Made by a program: the position numbers and the translations under genes. Positions 1,316-14,667 of a stretch of 19,308 bases of DNA are shown here, piece after piece (position 1 is the first letter of the stretch; the number at the start of each line of letters is the position of its first letter). Origin of the DNA: Myxococcales bacterium (GTDB lineage: Bacteria; Myxococcota; Polyangia; HGW-17; SLPX01); assembly GCA_007131745.1 (NCBI GenBank), contig SLPX01000378.1:1-19308 (forward strand), in the 5' to 3' direction. The notes under the pieces are model-generated. The model was given only the letters and a program-made list of their open reading frames with translations, was not told where the DNA came from and searched no databases.

Positions 1316-2233
1316 CTACAGGTATCGCTGGCAACCATCGCACCAGGTGCGGTTGTACTGTGCGATGAAACGGGTGCGGCCTCCACAACCGGGACAGGCA
1401 GCCTGACCGGCCCCGTCCGCCGCAGGTGGCTGGGCCTGCTGTGCACCACCGAAACCACCTGGTTGCGACGCTCCGGCTTCCGGTCCTCCCCCCGCTCCAA
1501 ACGAACTTCCCGGACCCGGCTGGGGCTGAGATACTCCCTGAGAAGCGGCATTGTCTATCGCCATTGATGCAGCGGCCATGCCCACGCCCGCCTGGTCGCT
1601 GAATCCTTGAACCTTGCTTCCGAAAAGTCCCAGCAAACCGTCGGCCAGTTTACCCTTTGGTTCTTTGGAACCGAATACACTCACCTGCACAACAGCAAGC
1701 AAAAAGGCGACCGGAGCGTAAACCACCATCATTGTCACGGGAATATGGAAAGCTGCGCCCCTTGAAAACGCCACGAACGCACTGAAACTTCCTATCACAC
1801 CCATCACTCCATAGACCATCGTAAAAATCAGGTTAATCCCGTAGAAAACTTTCCTGGGATACCACTTTTCCTTGTTGTTTGTTTGTTTCAAAAGGATCTC
1901 AAGAGCAATGAACAGAGCTCCAGCGCCAATCAACGATCCGATTCCCCCACGCACTTCCGCAAAAGTAATGCCCTGGCTGCTTATCATCCCGAATATCCAA
2001 TTAAAGATCAGGAAAACCCCGTAAAGAGCCTGCTGAAAACAAACAACCTGGAACAACAATATGATGGACTTGAGTCCCAATTGATGATCCCGCTGTTCTT
2101 GTTCCAGTCCCTTTTCACGCCCCCTCATCACAAAGTAGGCCGGAACAAAACCGATCAGGAGAATCAGGGCCAATGCCGAATTAATCACCGACATCAACAT
2201 ACTTCTTACATCACCCATCATCATATCCAACAT
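1316..2233 (-). CDS. Five-helix membrane protein with C-terminal zinc ribbon
   Basis: 305 residues, no named family recognised. The N-terminal two thirds contains about five hydrophobic helices (roughly 14-36, 55-84, 94-112, 129-155 and 160-187). A flexible Gly/Pro/Gln/Ala-rich linker (about 215-275) follows, then a small metal-binding module: CPGCGG at 280-285 and CDGC at 298-301, the two CxxC knuckles of a zinc ribbon. The last helix and the loop signs suggest the ribbon is cytoplasmic, which is an inference. The start ATG at 2233 has GGGAG six bases upstream on its own strand. It lies 110 bp downstream of the PP2C phosphatase on the same strand and may be co-transcribed, which would link it to protein-phosphorylation signalling; no direct evidence for that is visible. 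Confidence 0.8.
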   Translation of the reverse strand: MLDMMMGDVRSMLMSVINSALALILLIGFVPAYFVMRGREKGLEQEQRDHQLGLKSIILLFQVVCFQQALYGVFLIFNWIFGMISSQGITFAEVRGGIGSLIGAGALFIALEILLKQTNNKEKWYPRKVFYGINLIFTMVYGVMGVIGSFSAFVAFSRGAAFHIPVTMMVVYAPVAFLLAVVQVSVFGSKEPKGKLADGLLGLFGSKVQGFSDQAGVGMAAASMAIDNAASQGVSQPQPGPGSSFGAGGGPEAGASQPGGFGGAQQAQPPAADGAGQAACPGCGGRTRFIAQYNRTWCDGCQRYL

Positions 2234-2343
2234 ATCAACTCCCTCGCATGCTTGAGTGTAAATAGGACTGCGCCTGCAATTCCTTTCGGTTGCAACGCTA
2301 AAAACCTGGTGTCATTTTCTGAAAACCATCATGCCGGCGACTT

Positions 2344-3105
2344 CTACACGCGGCATTCCAACAAAAGTGTAGTGATATTGTCGACTCCACCGTTTCTGTT
2401 AGCGCGATCCACCAGCGTCGCCACACCGGCTTCAAGATCCGGAGCATTGTCAACTATCTCCAACAGTTGCTCATCCTGGATCATCCCCGACAAACCGTCC
2501 GAACACAACAAAAACCTGTCGCCGTCTTCCAATGTGTAAGACGAAACGTCCACCTGAACGGTCTCACGCATGCCGAGAGCCCTTGTAATCACGTTCTTGT
2601 GTGGAAAGTTACGCTCCTCTTCCGCCGTCATGTCGGGCTTTGCATCTTTGTAATCTTCCAAAAGAGAGTGATCCCGGGTGAGCTGCTCGATTCCGCTGTT
2701 TCTCAAGCGGTAAATCCTGCTGTCCCCCACGTGAGCCATGTAAACTTTCTCGCCCTGAAGAAGACAGACTACTATGGTGGTCCCCATCCCCTTATACCTG
2801 ATGTCCGACGCTGCCGCATGAAAGATGCGGTAATTAGCCAGCTTGATGGCACAAACAAGACGATTCTCGGTGTAATTCAAGGATCGATCCATCTTGTACG
2901 GCCATGTGGCCTCTTCGTCTTTTGTCCGCTGATAAAACTCGCTCATGGCTTCAGCCGCCATTTTGGAAGCGACTTCGCCCGATGCATGGCCTCCCATGCC
3001 GTCGGCGACCATGAAAAGTTGCTCGTCTTCAATGAGGCTGAAATAGTCCTCATTGTGACTTCGTTTCATGCCCACATCAGTTTTCGCGGCGTAACGGATT
3101 CTCAT
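2344..3105 (-). CDS. PP2C-family serine/threonine protein phosphatase
   Basis: A 253-residue soluble phosphatase of the PrpC/Stp type, which removes phosphate from Ser/Thr residues and usually counters Hanks-type kinases. Numbering from a two-codon-longer reading, the family motifs are: NED at 20-22, the metal motif DGMGGH at 37-42, GMGTT at 108-112, VGDSRIYR at 128-135, DHS at 147-149, CSDGLSGM at 203-210 and GGVDNIT at 241-247. All metal-coordinating aspartates are present, so it should be active. I start it at ATG 3105 because GGAG lies six bases upstream; a TTG two codons earlier would sit almost on that site. No Ser/Thr kinase is visible in the window. A promoter lies directly upstream, and a zinc-ribbon membrane protein follows 110 bp downstream. 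Confidence 0.95.
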
Positions 3106-3126
3106 TAACAACTCCGAAGTGCTCGC

Positions 3127-3155
3127 ATATTAAAGCAGGCTTTCGCCTAAGTCAA
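3127..3155 (-). promoter_or_regulatory. Sigma-70-like promoter of the PP2C gene with palindromic spacer
   Basis: Minus-strand TTGACT (3155-3150) and TAATAT (3132-3127) are separated by exactly 17 bp, matching consensus at five and four positions. The spacer holds a perfect inverted repeat AGGC-GAAA-GCCT (3137-3148). Transcription would begin around 3120, giving a leader of about 15-20 nt that includes the GGAG site. The palindrome between the two hexamers is a plausible operator, which is inference. Confidence 0.5.
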
Positions 3156-3326
3156 TGCCGTCTTCCATCGTTTGCCTGCTTTCCGGGTTTAAAATCTACA
3201 GCGGGTCGTCTCGGACCATTTCCGAACAAAAGCATAAAACCACAATCTTGATGTTTGATCCATATTTTCCTGCAACGAATTTCGCTTTGCACCTTTATCC
3301 CTTCCGGAACAACCCGGCATTATCTA

Positions 3327-4562
3327 TCAATTTTTGACAAGAACGACAAGTGCAAGTTCAGGCGGCACTCCAAATCTCAATGGAGGCCCTGTCAACCCTA
3401 CTCCTGCGCATACATACATCCTTGTTTTTCCCTTTGAATAAAGGCCGTGCAGATATGGCACGAACCACCCTGCCGGATTGAGCCCCGGAACCGCCACCTG
3501 ACCCCCGTGCGTATGTCCGGCCAAAACGAGATCCACGCGTCGTCCGGCTGCTTCGTCAAAAACATCGGGTCGATGTGACAACAATACCGTTGGATGATGA
3601 GGGTTGCAGGAAGCAATAGCCTTGCACAAATCCGGGCGATCGCCCCAATCCCGGATTCCCGCGAGGTTCAGGCTTGCTCCCCGATATGACAGCAAGACCG
3701 ATCGATCCTGCAGAACCTCCCAACCGGCCTTCTCCATCTCAGAAACAACCTTTTCTCTTCCAGGCAGACGATCATGATTCCCAAGCACCGAGGCCACGCC
3801 CCGGCGGGCTCTCAACCCCCGGAGTCCGCGAGCGAGATCACTCACAAAGCCGGGATGAAACCCATGGACCTGGTCTCCGGTCAAAGCCACAAGATGCGGA
3901 TCCAAGCTGTTTGAAAGCCGCGCCAACTTTTCCAGCTTTGAAACATCATAGAAATACCCGGTGTGAATATCGGTGATCTGCACAATACGAAACCCGTCGA
4001 GTTTCGGATCCAAGCCATCTATCGGTATTTCAATTTTCGTGACAACCGGTTCGGCGTCTCCATGACCAAGCCCTCTCGCAGCAACCAGCAGCGCTCCGGC
4101 GCCGACCCCGGAAGCGGCCCCGGCTAAAAAGCGCCGTCTATTGCGATCCGGGATGAACTTTGCACCCCGGTCCATAGACCCTTTCAAATCCACTGTTCCC
4201 TCTTCCTGTTTTCCCTTCCCTAGTCTGACGACAAACAAAGCAAAATAAGCTGAACCTAGAAACAGACCGGAAACAAGACCCGCCGCCTGCCATGCCGTGA
4301 ATGGAAATACAATGGTTCGATACATCCATGACGGCAGCAATAATCCGAAAAACCAATCTGCGAAAATGAAAACATAAGGCAAATTCGAAACTGCAAAAAG
4401 TCCCCAAAACAAGAAACGTACTTTCTCGCGAATCCTCGGATCCAAAGAGTTCCAAATGCACCGGAACAAAAAAAGCTGCGCTCCAAACCCGACTGCAGCA
4501 AAAGCGATCCTCCTGGACAAAAAGGAGAACAATCCCCATGCACTCATTGAATCGAGACCCAC
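3327..4562 (-). CDS. Membrane-anchored metallophosphoesterase with internal Tat-like motif
   Basis: 411 residues. The C-terminal half is a calcineurin-like metallophosphoesterase of the YkuE/YaeI type, with two-metal motifs in order: DIH at 198-200, GD at 229-230, GNHD at 261-264, SH at 329-330 and GHTHGG at 349-354. YaeI of E. coli and YkuE of B. subtilis act on lipid A precursor-type or wall-linked phosphoesters at the membrane; the substrate here is unknown. The N-terminal part has about four hydrophobic helices (11-33, 49-66, 67-90 and 93-113). Residues 142-146 then read RRRFL, followed by a weakly hydrophobic Ala/Gly stretch to 163, as in a twin-arginine signal. The start is GTG 4562, with a partial GGCGG ribosome site; ATG 4547 is the alternative. 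It is divergent from the adenosine-kinase family gene. Confidence 0.88.
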   Translation of the reverse strand: MGLDSMSAWGLFSFLSRRIAFAAVGFGAQLFLFRCIWNSLDPRIREKVRFLFWGLFAVSNLPYVFIFADWFFGLLLPSWMYRTIVFPFTAWQAAGLVSGLFLGSAYFALFVVRLGKGKQEEGTVDLKGSMDRGAKFIPDRNRRRFLAGAASGVGAGALLVAARGLGHGDAEPVVTKIEIPIDGLDPKLDGFRIVQITDIHTGYFYDVSKLEKLARLSNSLDPHLVALTGDQVHGFHPGFVSDLARGLRGLRARRGVASVLGNHDRLPGREKVVSEMEKAGWEVLQDRSVLLSYRGASLNLAGIRDWGDRPDLCKAIASCNPHHPTVLLSHRPDVFDEAAGRRVDLVLAGHTHGGQVAVPGLNPAGWFVPYLHGLYSKGKTRMYVCAGVGLTGPPLRFGVPPELALVVLVKN

Positions 4563-8392: not shown

Positions 8393-9211
8393 TCAATCCC
8401 TCTCATGGGATATATAGGCGAACGCGTTGTGGCTGTGAATCGACTCCATGTTTTCCGCTTCTATTGAAAAAAACCTGATGTTTTTATCCTTGATGAAAGC
8501 TTTGGCTACATTCCTGACGAGATCTTCCACGAACACCGGATTATCATAAGATTTTTCTGTGACGTATTTTTCGTCCACACGCTTCAACACCGAATAAATT
8601 TGGCAAGACGCAGCGGTTTCCACGGCCGCTATGATATCTTCTATCCAGAACATTTTGCGGAATCTCACTGCAACTTTCACAATCCCCCTCTGATTGTGAG
8701 CGCCGCGACTGCTTATTTCCTTGGAGCATGGGCATAGAGTCATAACAGGGACTTCCACTTCCGCTCCTATGTCAACCCGGGCGTCCCGTGAGGAAGAAGG
8801 AGCGGATCCAAGCAAACGACAATTATAAGCGACCAAGCCCTCCACTCCTGAAACCGGCGCGGCCTTCTTGATGAAATACGGGAACTCGATCTCCAGGTGA
8901 GCAGCTTCAGCGTCCAACCTCTTCTTCATTTCTTTCAGAAGAATCGGTATAGATTCCACTGTTATCGGCTCGCAATGTTCGTTCAACAGTTCCATGAATC
9001 GGCTCATGTGGGTTCCCTTGAACTGATGCGGCAAACTCACCGACATGGCGATTCGCGCCACCGTGGACTGTACTCCGTTGGCCTTGTCCAGCACCTTTAT
9101 GGGGAACTGAATCCCTCTCACCCCGACCCGATCGATTCCTATGGCTCGATCGTCCGGCCGGTTTTGGACATCCGCAAGTCCTGTCGAAAAATCGTTCGTT
9201 GTTTTGCTCAT
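8393..9211 (-). CDS. folE2: GTP cyclohydrolase I, FolE2 type
   Basis: 272 residues, typical of FolE2 (GTP cyclohydrolase IB), which converts GTP to 7,8-dihydroneopterin triphosphate, the first step of tetrahydrofolate synthesis and a branch point to queuosine. Family motifs are present in order: DVQNRPDDRAIGIDRVGV (14-31), LCPCSKEIS (159-167) holding the active-site cysteine region, GAHNQRG (170-176), KYVTEKSYDNPVFVEDLVR (215-233) and HSHNAFA (259-265). FolE2 does not require zinc specifically and in many bacteria is switched on by Zur when zinc is low. Here the upstream region shows no clear Zur box, so it may be the only such enzyme in this genome. ATG 9211 is preceded by GGAGAG. No other folate or queuosine gene is adjacent. 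Confidence 0.96.
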   Translation of the reverse strand: MSKTTNDFSTGLADVQNRPDDRAIGIDRVGVRGIQFPIKVLDKANGVQSTVARIAMSVSLPHQFKGTHMSRFMELLNEHCEPITVESIPILLKEMKKRLDAEAAHLEIEFPYFIKKAAPVSGVEGLVAYNCRLLGSAPSSSRDARVDIGAEVEVPVMTLCPCSKEISSRGAHNQRGIVKVAVRFRKMFWIEDIIAAVETAASCQIYSVLKRVDEKYVTEKSYDNPVFVEDLVRNVAKAFIKDKNIRFFSIEAENMESIHSHNAFAYISHERD

Positions 9212-10488: not shown

Positions 10489-12498
10489 ATGCACGCAAAA
10501 CGAATTTACAGAACAAATCAAACCATGCAAAACCTGTTTGTACTGTTAGGACTGGTAACAGCCTGCTTGTCAACACTGAGGCCGTCTGTTGCACGGGCAG
10601 GCGGATGGCAAAGCATCGGCGATCCACCCGAATCGATATCTATGCAGGAAGTCCAACGGCTGATGAAAGCCGACGGACTGAAGAACCAAGCAGAACTGCT
10701 GAAATACCCCTACCTTGTAAGGATTGCCATAACCGACACCGGGGGCGGCACATCGAATCACTCGGAAGTGGCTGTGCGTTTCCGTTGGATCCCGCAAAGA
10801 GCATACGCCAGGGCCTGGTGCGACCGCATGGAAAGAAACCGAGCACAGCTAGGTGCATACGCTGATTGCAAGGTACCCGAATCCGATGGATCGGTGAGAC
10901 CTGTCGGCCGCAGTTGCCCCGTCATGTACAACGCAAGGGGTTTTGTCGACGTCACCAAAGCGTTCACGGATCGCAACATGGTGTTTATTCATGACCCGGC
11001 ACGTCCCAATCGAGGCAATACCATTTTGTGGGCCGCATCGGATAAGCCCCAGACGAACATGTGGTACTACGTTTTCGAAGGAGTGGGCGATGTGCGTTTC
11101 GGCTTCGGCTCGATCACCATGCGGCAGTTCCATGTCGAAGAAAAAGAAGATCCTTCGCCTGATCCCGAGCCGCCCGTTTCGCCCGAGAGAATCCGTCCAC
11201 ATGATCAGCCGCCGGATGAAGAACCGGTGGTAACCGAAGTTCGACCCGAACCGCATCACTGGCGAAATCACGACGAAGCACACAAACCCGTTCCCAGATC
11301 CGCCCTGGCCGAAAGGATGCGCTCGGACGGAGTGCCCAATCCTGAACACCTGCTTGGCTTTCCGTACCTCGTCAGGCTGCACATCGACAAGACGGGAGGC
11401 GGCTCGGCGTCATACAGCGAAGTGCTCGTGAAATTTTCGTCCTTACCCAAAAGAGCTTTAGGCAAGGCGTGGGCCGATAGAAAGGAAGTATCACGCGCCC
11501 AGATGGGCGCCCCTGGAGAATGCCGTAGACGAGCGGATGCCAAAGGGGCAATGAGAAGAACCCATTTGTGCCCGGTTCATTTCAGCGGTCTTGGCTGGAG
11601 AAACCTCCGGCAGGCTTTCACTAGCGAAACAATGCTTTTTACAAACAATCCAAACAACCCCAACCGCGGCGGAACCCTTATCTGGGCAGCATTCAATAAG
11701 CCGCAAGATGACCTGGCTCATAAGATCCCGGACTCAATCTCAGGCACATCCTTCGGACTGGGGAAGGTGTCCGTCCGGAAGTACCGGCTGAAAGACACTT
11801 TGGACCAAGTGAAAGAAAGAACCGCCCCCACCAGAGATCCCTGGAAATCTCACGCCATAAGAACTGAAAAGGTCGCGGCTCATCAGTTGGCGGGATTCCT
11901 TCGCAAAGAAGGGCTGAAAGCATTTGCTCCACTGTCCCGTTATCGTTACCTCGTGATCGTAGATTTGAGAAACACGGGCGGAGGAACCGGCAGAAGATCG
12001 GAAATAGGATTGCGGTTCAGCTCTCCGGCAAGAATGGTCCTGGGGCGAGCATGGGCGGACGACAAGGCAATGGGCCGAGCTCAAATAGGCGGGATGAATG
12101 AGTGCAGGACCGGAGTTCATGAAAACCTCCCTCCGGGCTGGCGCACCTGCCCGGTGCACTTCAACAACTTGGGATGGAGAGATCTTTCGTCCGGACTGTC
12201 GGGAAAAAATGAAGTTCTGCTGATCAACCAGCCTCAGAATTCAAACCGTGCAAACACCTTACTGGTATTCGGGTTCGACAAGGATCCCGGCACGATCATG
12301 GTGAGAGAATTCAGAAAAGCCGGCCGGTACACTCTGGGGACGGGGAGAATGCAGATAAGAAAACTACATGTACTTCCCAGGGGTCACCACAGAGAACACC
12401 CGCATCAACGAGGGCCCTACAGACATCATGATGACGACGACCGGTTCGACGATGACGACTACGACGACTACGACGATTACGACGATTACGACGATTAA
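10489..12498 (+). CDS. Secreted triple-repeat protein with His- and Asp/Tyr-rich tail
   Basis: 669 residues; no known family recognised. Residues 1-37 look like a Sec signal peptide (hydrophobic core 14-30, cut after ARA). Three homologous domains follow at about 52-216, 270-434 and 462-628. Each starts with an amphipathic helix, then YLVRI-type strand and TGGG (84, 302, 496), SEV/SEI (92, 310, 504), RAQ (118, 336, 530), a Cys pair (127/143, 345/361, 539/554) with CPVxF-like context, and a (P/S)NRxNT turn (173, 391, 585). Pro-rich charged linkers separate them. The tail has HHREHPH, then HHDDDD and repeated DDY to the C-terminus, giving a strongly acidic end likely to bind divalent cations. 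AAGGGA precedes ATG 10489. It lies downstream of the lipoprotein on the same strand. A surface, matrix or mineral-binding role is inference. Confidence 0.85.
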   Translation: MHAKRIYRTNQTMQNLFVLLGLVTACLSTLRPSVARAGGWQSIGDPPESISMQEVQRLMKADGLKNQAELLKYPYLVRIAITDTGGGTSNHSEVAVRFRWIPQRAYARAWCDRMERNRAQLGAYADCKVPESDGSVRPVGRSCPVMYNARGFVDVTKAFTDRNMVFIHDPARPNRGNTILWAASDKPQTNMWYYVFEGVGDVRFGFGSITMRQFHVEEKEDPSPDPEPPVSPERIRPHDQPPDEEPVVTEVRPEPHHWRNHDEAHKPVPRSALAERMRSDGVPNPEHLLGFPYLVRLHIDKTGGGSASYSEVLVKFSSLPKRALGKAWADRKEVSRAQMGAPGECRRRADAKGAMRRTHLCPVHFSGLGWRNLRQAFTSETMLFTNNPNNPNRGGTLIWAAFNKPQDDLAHKIPDSISGTSFGLGKVSVRKYRLKDTLDQVKERTAPTRDPWKSHAIRTEKVAAHQLAGFLRKEGLKAFAPLSRYRYLVIVDLRNTGGGTGRRSEIGLRFSSPARMVLGRAWADDKAMGRAQIGGMNECRTGVHENLPPGWRTCPVHFNNLGWRDLSSGLSGKNEVLLINQPQNSNRANTLLVFGFDKDPGTIMVREFRKAGRYTLGTGRMQIRKLHVLPRGHHREHPHQRGPYRHHDDDDRFDDDDYDDYDDYDDYDD

Positions 12499-12513
12499 GA
12501 CGATTAAGACGAT
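12454..12513 (+). repeat. 9-bp tandem repeat crossing the stop codon
   Basis: Six full units of GACGAYTAM (12454-12507) plus a 6-bp partial unit (12508-12513). The first four end in TAC (Tyr); units five and six end in TAA. The reading frame matches the unit, so unit five supplies the stop codon (12496-12498), and two more units lie beyond it in the same frame. The coding units give the (DDY)n tail of the secreted protein. Confidence 0.93.
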
Positions 12514-12588: not shown

Positions 12589-14667
12589 TCAAGGCAACCA
12601 AAAGGTTCCCGGGAGCCCTATTCCGATTCCACCGGCCTTCCACGCAGCAACGAAACTAACCGCCGCGGCGTACGACCCTCCCTTTACCGCCATTTCTTCA
12701 AGTGAAATAAAGCCGGACCGATCTGAACCCTCGCCGGCAAACACCATGTTGCCTGAATTCAACCCGGCAATATAAACCCGTTTCGTTTGGGGATTCTTGG
12801 AAAACGCCGGATCATCCGAACGAACGACGGAATCCGGGTCGGGCGAAACCTGTACGGAAAATAATTTATCATGGTTCTGAACTTGATCAGCTACAAGCGC
12901 GGCAGCGGATCGCTGGAGATCTCTCAGAGCAGCGGACAATCTCTCTCGGGCCTCACCGAGGTTTTCGAGTAAATTTCGGCTGGAAACCATATAATCATCC
13001 AGATGGCCCACGAACCAACCGTGCCTTCGTCGAATCGTGGAGTGTTCAAACCTGTCAGCCCCGTTGGTCACGATTGAAAAAGCCAGGCGGTTTCCCTCTC
13101 CATTGAACATGAATCCCGAAAGCGCGCTTATTCCTCTCAACGTACCGGTCTTCCCGATCAACCGGGAATTGAGATCCAGATAGGTCATTCTTCTGCGCAA
13201 CGTTCCGTCCCTGTGCGCCACTGCAAGAGATTCTTTAAAGAGGCTGGAAATTTTCCCCGAATTATCGCAAACCCAAAAACTTCTTCCACCCGAAACCCGG
13301 GGGGGACAGGCTGTCGGCATGCGATAACCGCCGGCCACACGTAGCACGCGCATGATCTGTCGGGCTGAAATGCGGGTTTTATACGACAACCCTGAACCCG
13401 TATCCAATACGATGTCCCGGGTATCGATTCCAGTACGCCAGACCAGCCACCGTTTCATGGCCGCCACCCCTTTATTCATGCAGGACCGCCCACCGTAAAC
13501 GTATGCGCCCAAAGTAGCCGTCAAGCTGTCGGCCAGATAGTTATCGCTCGACTTGTTAATTATCGCTGCAAGCTCAGCCATTGTCATGGAACGGTGTACC
13601 GACAATTTCTGCCGATCTTGTGAGCCATCCCCAAATACCGGAAAGCTCCGCCCGCCCAATCTGATATTCCCCGCCAACTCGATCCCGTTGCTTTCCAACA
13701 CTTCCAATAAAACTTCCGCTGTACGCACGTACGAATTGTCGATTTCCGGAGAAAACCTAACCATTGCGCCGGAACGGATGGTACCGGATACCACGATCTT
13801 CCCCAGGAATCCGTTTTCCTCCGGGTTGTCGGATTCCAATTCAAGCTTGGTCTTCACATCCCCCTCTGTGCCGGCTTTTATTCCAACGCGGCTCTCGAAA
13901 CTCAAATAGGAAGGCATGCCGGAGACAAGAGCCTGGGCCACCGGAGCGCGTCCTTCCGCAGACTCACCCTCATCAAGTTCGCCGCGGGAAAATCTCCGTG
14001 AGGGTCTGCCGAACACGACCAAATCAAGCTTCAGGTTATCTCCTCGGGCAAGCAACGCGCCGGGGCTCAAAAACAAGTCTCCGTGAATCCTTTTTATCCC
14101 GGCTTCCGCCAGTTCTTTCACCATGTTTTCCAGGTCACCGGCTTCCAAAGTCGGATCGCCGGAACCCTCAAGGTAAAGATCCCTTATTCCGCTCTTTCCT
14201 TTTCTGTCTCCTCCAAAAAAAGTTTCATACCGCCAGTCGGGGCCGAAAGCATCCAGAGCCGCGGCCGTGGCAATAAGCTTCACATTTGAGGCCGGATTCA
14301 AAAGCTTGTCTACATTGTGTTCTAATATGGGCTTGCCGGTATGTGCATCCACAACATACACGGCCGTGACCCCGCTTCTTAGAACAGGATCCCGAAACAG
14401 ACTCTCCACATTTCTCCTGAAATCATCGCCCGCGGCCGGCAGTTCATTTGTCAAGGAGCGAACTTTATTTCGTGCTTTGTTGACTGCACTGGAAAGTTTT
14501 GCATGTTCGGAAATAAGTTCTTTTTTAGTATTTCCGCGCGGATCCACAAGGCTGTGTCCCCCCTTTTCCATTTCCGGTTCAATGGATCTACCCACTCCGA
14601 CCGCAGGAGTCTGCCTCATCAATCCAACAAGAAACAGCAAAAGACTTATGCCCAATACCCTTTTCAT
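12589..14667 (-). CDS. dacB: D-alanyl-D-alanine carboxypeptidase/endopeptidase, PBP4 (S13) type
   Basis: 692 residues, exported (signal helix 3-16). Peptidase family S13 enzymes trim stem peptides and open peptide cross-links of peptidoglycan in the periplasm. The three active-site motifs are intact: SNVK at 127-130 (SxxK), SDN at 374-376 (SxN) and KTG at 506-508. Other family marks are PASNVKL, LYLEGSGDPTL (164-174), DTGSGLS and GKTGTLRGISALSGF. The inserted domains between SxxK and SxN are present. Two oddities: a charged helical segment before the catalytic domain (46-90), and about 130 residues after the normal end, including a probable coiled coil (567-597) and a tail I cannot assign. 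ATG 14667 is preceded by GGGAGGT. A perfect promoter lies about 130 bp upstream. Confidence 0.95.
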   Translation of the reverse strand: MKRVLGISLLLFLVGLMRQTPAVGVGRSIEPEMEKGGHSLVDPRGNTKKELISEHAKLSSAVNKARNKVRSLTNELPAAGDDFRRNVESLFRDPVLRSGVTAVYVVDAHTGKPILEHNVDKLLNPASNVKLIATAAALDAFGPDWRYETFFGGDRKGKSGIRDLYLEGSGDPTLEAGDLENMVKELAEAGIKRIHGDLFLSPGALLARGDNLKLDLVVFGRPSRRFSRGELDEGESAEGRAPVAQALVSGMPSYLSFESRVGIKAGTEGDVKTKLELESDNPEENGFLGKIVVSGTIRSGAMVRFSPEIDNSYVRTAEVLLEVLESNGIELAGNIRLGGRSFPVFGDGSQDRQKLSVHRSMTMAELAAIINKSSDNYLADSLTATLGAYVYGGRSCMNKGVAAMKRWLVWRTGIDTRDIVLDTGSGLSYKTRISARQIMRVLRVAGGYRMPTACPPRVSGGRSFWVCDNSGKISSLFKESLAVAHRDGTLRRRMTYLDLNSRLIGKTGTLRGISALSGFMFNGEGNRLAFSIVTNGADRFEHSTIRRRHGWFVGHLDDYMVSSRNLLENLGEARERLSAALRDLQRSAAALVADQVQNHDKLFSVQVSPDPDSVVRSDDPAFSKNPQTKRVYIAGLNSGNMVFAGEGSDRSGFISLEEMAVKGGSYAAAVSFVAAWKAGGIGIGLPGTFWLP

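Follow-up and report, generated by a model that had tools for sequence, protein, structure and literature searches.

The window analysed here is a 19,308 nucleotide stretch of contig SLPX01000378.1 from a Myxococcales bacterium. Its subject is a forward-strand gene that a sequence-only reading had described as coding for a secreted protein in which one unrecognised domain occurs three times. An open reading frame (ORF) of 669 amino acids (aa) was confirmed at 10489..12498, exactly where it had been placed. The gene and its parts are as follows, with the confidence of one model given as predicted local distance difference test (pLDDT) and predicted template modelling (pTM) scores.

10489..12498, + strand: whole gene, coding for a signal-like start, three domains, linkers and a tail; stop codon at 12496-12498
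10489..10602, + strand: predicted N-terminal export signal (hydropathy, alignment with relatives, cleavage site by eye)
10603..11148, + strand: domain 1, aa 39-220 (domain profile, AlphaFold model)
11149..11256, + strand: linker 1, aa 221-256, Pro-rich, acidic, predicted disordered (pLDDT <50 at 220-252)
11257..11799, + strand: domain 2, aa 257-437 (modelled alone: pLDDT 93.4, pTM 0.90)
11800..11838, + strand: linker 2, aa 438-450, about 13 aa, not Pro-rich, predicted disordered
11839..12384, + strand: domain 3, aa 451-632 (domain profile, AlphaFold model)
12385..12495, + strand: C-terminal His/Asp/Tyr-rich tail, aa 633-669, predicted disordered
12454..12513, + strand: tandem repeat of 9 base pairs (bp), 6.7 copies, coding for the Asp/Tyr end of the tail and continuing beyond the stop codon

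Because the repeat array spans the stop codon, the protein tail terminates within the array.

Three copies of one domain

The three domains align with one another over 170-180 residues, with identities of 35.0% for domains 1 and 2 (expect value, E, 1.8e-43), 31.2% for domains 1 and 3 (E 3e-31) and 32.6% for domains 2 and 3 (E 5e-29). Smith-Waterman scores of the three pairs were 349, 248 and 250, against maxima of 53, 46 and 56 from 2000 shuffles each, which places the domain pairs 45-71 standard deviations above the shuffles. The claim of three copies therefore stands, with a domain length of about 180 aa in place of the roughly 165 residues first proposed. The linkers had been called Pro-rich, which fits the first (also acidic) and not the second. 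In the AlphaFold model of the whole chain (pTM 0.38) the linkers are disordered and all three domains show the same order of structural elements.

We compared the domain with catalogued families and solved structures. Neither the whole protein nor any of its three domains matched a Pfam or NCBIfam family at E<=1. The 34 domains of a family alignment (A4) gave only two matches to families, unrelated, each from a single member and at E 0.045 or weaker; no credible match was found in PHROGs or among PDB sequences. PDB sequence rows at E 0.0005-0.003 proved to be designed TIM barrels whose alignments cover some 30 residues and contain no stretch that passes by itself; they were judged chance. Foldseek comparison of domain 2 with the PDB and BFVD gave nothing at E<=0.001. 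An integrin row obtained with the whole model (E 8.6e-4) was not accepted, having a TM-score of 0.11 and a root-mean-square deviation of 26.

A loose beta-sandwich likeness over about 95-107 residues was seen to the distal C2-like domain of Calpain-7 (2qfe) and to the C-terminal part of Tk-SP (3afg, 9ues). The domain may belong to a known superfamily (C2-like, PPC-like or jelly-roll) and have diverged far from its other members, a possibility to which we give a little less than an even chance and which is compatible with any function. Judged by these sequence and model comparisons, the domain is a new family, in three or four copies and without a close match among solved structures, in agreement with its first description as unrecognised.

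The protein family, its export signal and its history

A search of 5.8 billion proteins, in which 7996 candidates were scored, found at least 12 relatives that are 35-80% identical to the window protein. Two further protein searches listed at least 10 and at least 2 relatives and passed over members found otherwise; each protein search scored lengths 0.55-1.75 times that of the query and at most about 8000 candidates. Distant relatives were found by six-frame searches with domain profiles. The protein search that listed at least 2 relatives used a profile made of mostly distant members; the two are P0013 (the protein of genome G382) and P0014, from sources labelled Deltaproteobacteria and Myxococcota. 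Genome contigs were scanned as well, with matches in two genomes that both bear the label Deltaproteobacteria and one further match put down to chance. This last, the Nitrospirae candidate L003, was rejected, its match lying within an ORF that by eye resembles a trehalose-metabolism glycosyltransferase, beside a phosphatase. All named relatives are labelled Deltaproteobacteria or Myxococcota. The 12 further proteins, with the additional members in genomes, indicate that the gene is real, and with no catalogued family matched they uphold the proposal of a new protein family. Text searches for the contig, isolate and locus-tag names of relatives matched no paper.

Six-frame scans found the protein in 11 of the 13 genomes of the order that contains G001 and G002. 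A class sample (11/192) and a phylum sample (3/377), with at most 18 and at most 9 candidates per genome scored, respectively, yielded positives that all belong to the same 11 genomes. As far as the sampled genomes of order, class and phylum go, one order has the family almost universally and no genome outside that order has it; the window's place in that order is inferred from its relatives. The two genomes of the order with no match are G381 and G387. In the latter, the ortholog of a class A penicillin-binding protein (PBP) gene considered below ends 26 bp from a contig edge, on the side where the family gene would follow, so this absence may be an assembly gap.

The 24 family entries hold 78 domains: three copies in 17 entries (the contig of L035 ends within the third), four copies in six, and three visible copies in L030, which lacks its start. 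P0010 and the L001 entry represent one protein, and L033, L034 and L036 are near copies of one another; removing 9 duplicate or near-copy rows from the 78 left the 69 domains used as a tree set. No single-domain copy was found in the six-frame scans of the order, class and phylum genome samples.

Members share predicted export, three or four domains and one Cys pair in each domain. The Cys pair, noted earlier in the three window domains, is present in 34/34 domains of A4 and 69/69 of the tree set. Among the latter, Trp 399 is conserved in 90%, the Arg of the YLVR motif in 87% and the Glu of the SE motif in 78%. Such a small set of strongly kept residues, the Cys pair included, is what an enzyme or enzyme inhibitor on a beta-sandwich scaffold could show. 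However, 34 columns are conserved in at least 60% of the 69 domains, and 19 of these are Gly, Trp, Leu, Pro or Cys, which fits a structural role; catalytic domains in tandem copies would also be unusual; we regard an enzymatic or inhibitory function as very improbable. All 31 domains tabulated are basic, with isoelectric points (pI) of 8.8-12.0 and more Lys plus Arg than Asp plus Glu.

Export is predicted from the N-terminal sequence. The window protein has a hydrophobic stretch at aa 16-34, followed by a signal-peptidase-I-like ARA-GG site read by eye (the hyphen marks the putative cleavage point), and the signal peptide first proposed is in this respect supported. By alignment and eye, P0001, P0002, P0003, P0005, P0006 and P0010 have AMA-GG, AHA-GG or ARA-GG/GS at the corresponding place, and the N-terminus is hydrophobic in 7/7 family proteins checked. 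The AlphaFold model has a helix at 6-29, and Met13 is a second possible start. A lipobox-like VTAC was also seen by eye in the N-terminus of the window protein; its Cys has no counterpart in the same six relatives. At the other end, P0001-P0005 carry acidic tails of differing sequence, whereas those of P0006 and P0010 are Pro-rich and poor in acidic residues. Acidic tails are absent from the six four-copy proteins and from the distant branch, where the tail is at most 10 residues long. The tail that the sequence-only reading called cation-binding, a putative property, therefore has acidic counterparts in only some close relatives.

Trees of 69 and 36 domains group the copies by position within each of two branches, with support of 64 to 100 for the position groups in the 36-domain tree. 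This grouping is consistent with the old duplication under structural constraint that had been suggested. In the 69-domain tree the fourth-copy clade of the four-copy proteins pairs, with weak support (70), with the third copies of the three-copy proteins. An approximately unbiased (AU) test of 36 domains from 12 proteins, which left out the four-copy members, P0001, P0003 and near copies, favoured neither order of events (p-AU 0.35 for monophyly of the three positions, 0.22 for branch-wise monophyly); the triplication may predate or postdate the split of the two family branches.

Gene neighbourhoods and a possible role

The following features lie near the gene in the window, and a megablast comparison of the whole window with plasmids gave no match.

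2344..3111, - strand: PP2C-type phosphatase, 61-63% identical to one found close to the family gene in each of L028, L032 and L035
7521..8381, + strand: its product has four hydrophobic segments and matches no Pfam family; the L001 counterpart, in the same relative place, is 43.7% identical
8393..9211, - strand: FolE2-type GTP cyclohydrolase (PF02649), which also adjoins the family gene in L001
9384-10250, + strand: DUF6209 (PF19714) protein, E 1.2e-47, signal-like start; directly upstream gene
12589..14667, - strand: S13-family D-Ala-D-Ala carboxypeptidase, convergent downstream neighbour

In both the window and L001, then, the four-segment membrane protein accompanies FolE2 and the family gene. 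The DUF6209 protein resembles the family protein in being coded on the same strand and in having a signal-like start. Kinship between the two was rejected (hhalign probability 0.2%, one column aligned, with a single sequence on the DUF6209 side). Both halves of the DUF6209 protein end in similar WDSDYG.NY.F motifs, by eye reminiscent of starch-binding modules.

We compared 11 loci of relatives with the window; L030 is cut upstream and L035 downstream, leaving 10 informative loci on each side. In 6/10 (L028, L032-L036), the gene immediately upstream, on the same strand, codes for a class A PBP (Transgly plus Transpeptidase; two of the six scanned against Pfam, the others assigned by sequence cluster). 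The gaps are 56-175 bp, where the 56 bp of L036 rests on an early start codon and becomes 197 bp from the conserved Met (3864). Directly downstream, a Ser/Thr kinase gene is found in 6/10 (L029, L031-L034, L036; three of the six scanned against Pfam), from 8 bp overlapping to 28 bp beyond the family stop codon. Each set of six represents fewer independent cases, since L033, L034 and L036 are closely related and make a single case. The window, L028, L032 and L035 each have a PP2C ortholog in the vicinity of the family gene. In these last three loci the genes run RimO-like, PP2C, CinA-like, an unnamed gene, RecA-like, class A PBP and family gene, with the names RimO, CinA and RecA given by eye only.

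Some loci have other neighbours. L029 codes, divergently upstream of the family gene (2129-3808, -), for a PNGase F-like protein (PF09113, E 1.2e-25); in L028 (827-3157, -; G208) a glycoside hydrolase family 31 gene takes the position that the kinase has in six other loci. L031 has two kinase-like genes in a row after the family gene (1887-2855 and 2836-3777, -), and the second protein ends in a hydrophobic segment (301-319), a possible membrane anchor.

We tentatively suggest that the family protein is an exported multivalent binder of the cell envelope that assists or anchors peptidoglycan synthesis in its own lineage. A soluble protein with three basic beta-sandwich-like domains on flexible linkers would be exported and would most likely remain in the cell envelope. 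Each domain would probably be held by one disulfide, as the invariant Cys residues of a predicted exported protein suggest. Several sites at once would then engage a repeated, negatively charged target, a polyanion preference suggested by the domain charge, and the cell wall, or the class A PBP that makes it, would be the most likely partner. Multivalent envelope binding is thus proposed from export, a Cys pair per domain, basic domains, flexible linkers and the match to no enzyme family, whereas the link to peptidoglycan is drawn from gene order in relatives only. The downstream kinase gene, the PP2C ortholog nearby and the presence of the family in 11 of the 13 genomes of the order also speak in favour of the proposal.

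Several observations weigh against this proposal. Neither a peptidoglycan-binding nor an Lpo-type family appeared among the profile matches. Domain 1 of the window protein is only mildly basic (pI 8.8), the same protein has an acidic linker and an acidic tail, and many kinds of ligand could be bound by basic domains. Such a PBP and the kinase are both missing beside the family gene in the window, L001 and L002. A PBP match at E<=1e-60 is present in each of the 13 genomes of the order, and in G001, G002, G303, G379 and G380 the best match lies on a different contig from the family gene. Since the order of PP2C, RecA-like and PBP genes is generally conserved, adjacency may reflect inheritance and not function. 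Hydropathy gave no convincing membrane segment in the directly downstream kinases, which makes direct contact of the kinase with an exported protein unlikely.

The protein could instead be released or surface-bound and bind a polymer outside the cell, in adhesion or polysaccharide capture, with three or four domains giving avidity. We consider such a role somewhat unlikely.

The kinase could alternatively be the significant neighbour, with the family protein as the outside half of a signalling unit, an envelope sensor relaying to the Ser/Thr kinase and PP2C through a membrane partner. Beyond its closeness to the family stop codon in six loci, the kinase stays with the family gene in G303 and G380 though the PBP is on another contig. 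Moreover, in a search of 13 genomes (G384 and G386 left out), the kinase ortholog, 48-80% identical to that of G382, was found in 6/13, all of which carry the distant family branch; it lies on another contig in G208 and starts 115 bp from a contig edge in G385. No membrane partner was identified, however, and no such kinase adjoins the family gene in the window, L001, L002, L028 or L030. The kinase matches listed for G001, G002 and G379 are at most 43% identical, similar to genomes without the family; where the ortholog is missing, kinase identities go up to 43-44%. A sensor of this kind is, in our judgement, improbable. A bolder version of the peptidoglycan proposal, in which an undescribed domain, its beta fold not closely represented among solved structures and its copies fixed at three or four, forms a near-core, order-defining exported organiser of cell-wall synthesis, partly wired to a dedicated Ser/Thr kinase, also appears unlikely.

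Comparison with known cell-wall systems

Gram-positive bacteria have clusters of kinase and cell-wall genes, which some of the relatives' loci resemble in having a PBP, a Ser/Thr kinase and PP2C near each other. The relatives belong to a different bacterial group, and their kinases differ in having no PASTA domain (three scanned) and no convincing membrane segment. We know of no counterpart of the exported triple-domain protein in the Gram-positive clusters.

The new domain family has a confident predicted structure and could enter Pfam, and it could serve to mark one order that is known here from genomes alone. If the neighbours are meaningful, it would add a new lineage-specific factor of peptidoglycan synthesis outside the model bacteria.

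Class A PBP regulators vary between bacterial groups, with LpoA and LpoB in E. coli and CsiV in Vibrio, and differ in structure from one another; the parts of class A PBPs that are not catalytic are in many cases shared only by related groups (PMC4632607). LpoP is the corresponding regulator in Pseudomonas aeruginosa (PMC7267771). The regulators described in these two sources are TPR, periplasmic-binding-like or small proteins (PMC4632607, PMC7267771). LpoA, LpoB, LpoP and CsiV are exported and act on a class A PBP, and the window family is likened to them by its predicted export and by the adjacent PBP gene in six loci; it differs from the Lpo-type proteins in its three beta domains, in having no conserved lipobox and in matching no Lpo-type family. 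By analogy, the window family would work like the Lpo-type regulators, yet it belongs to none of their families.
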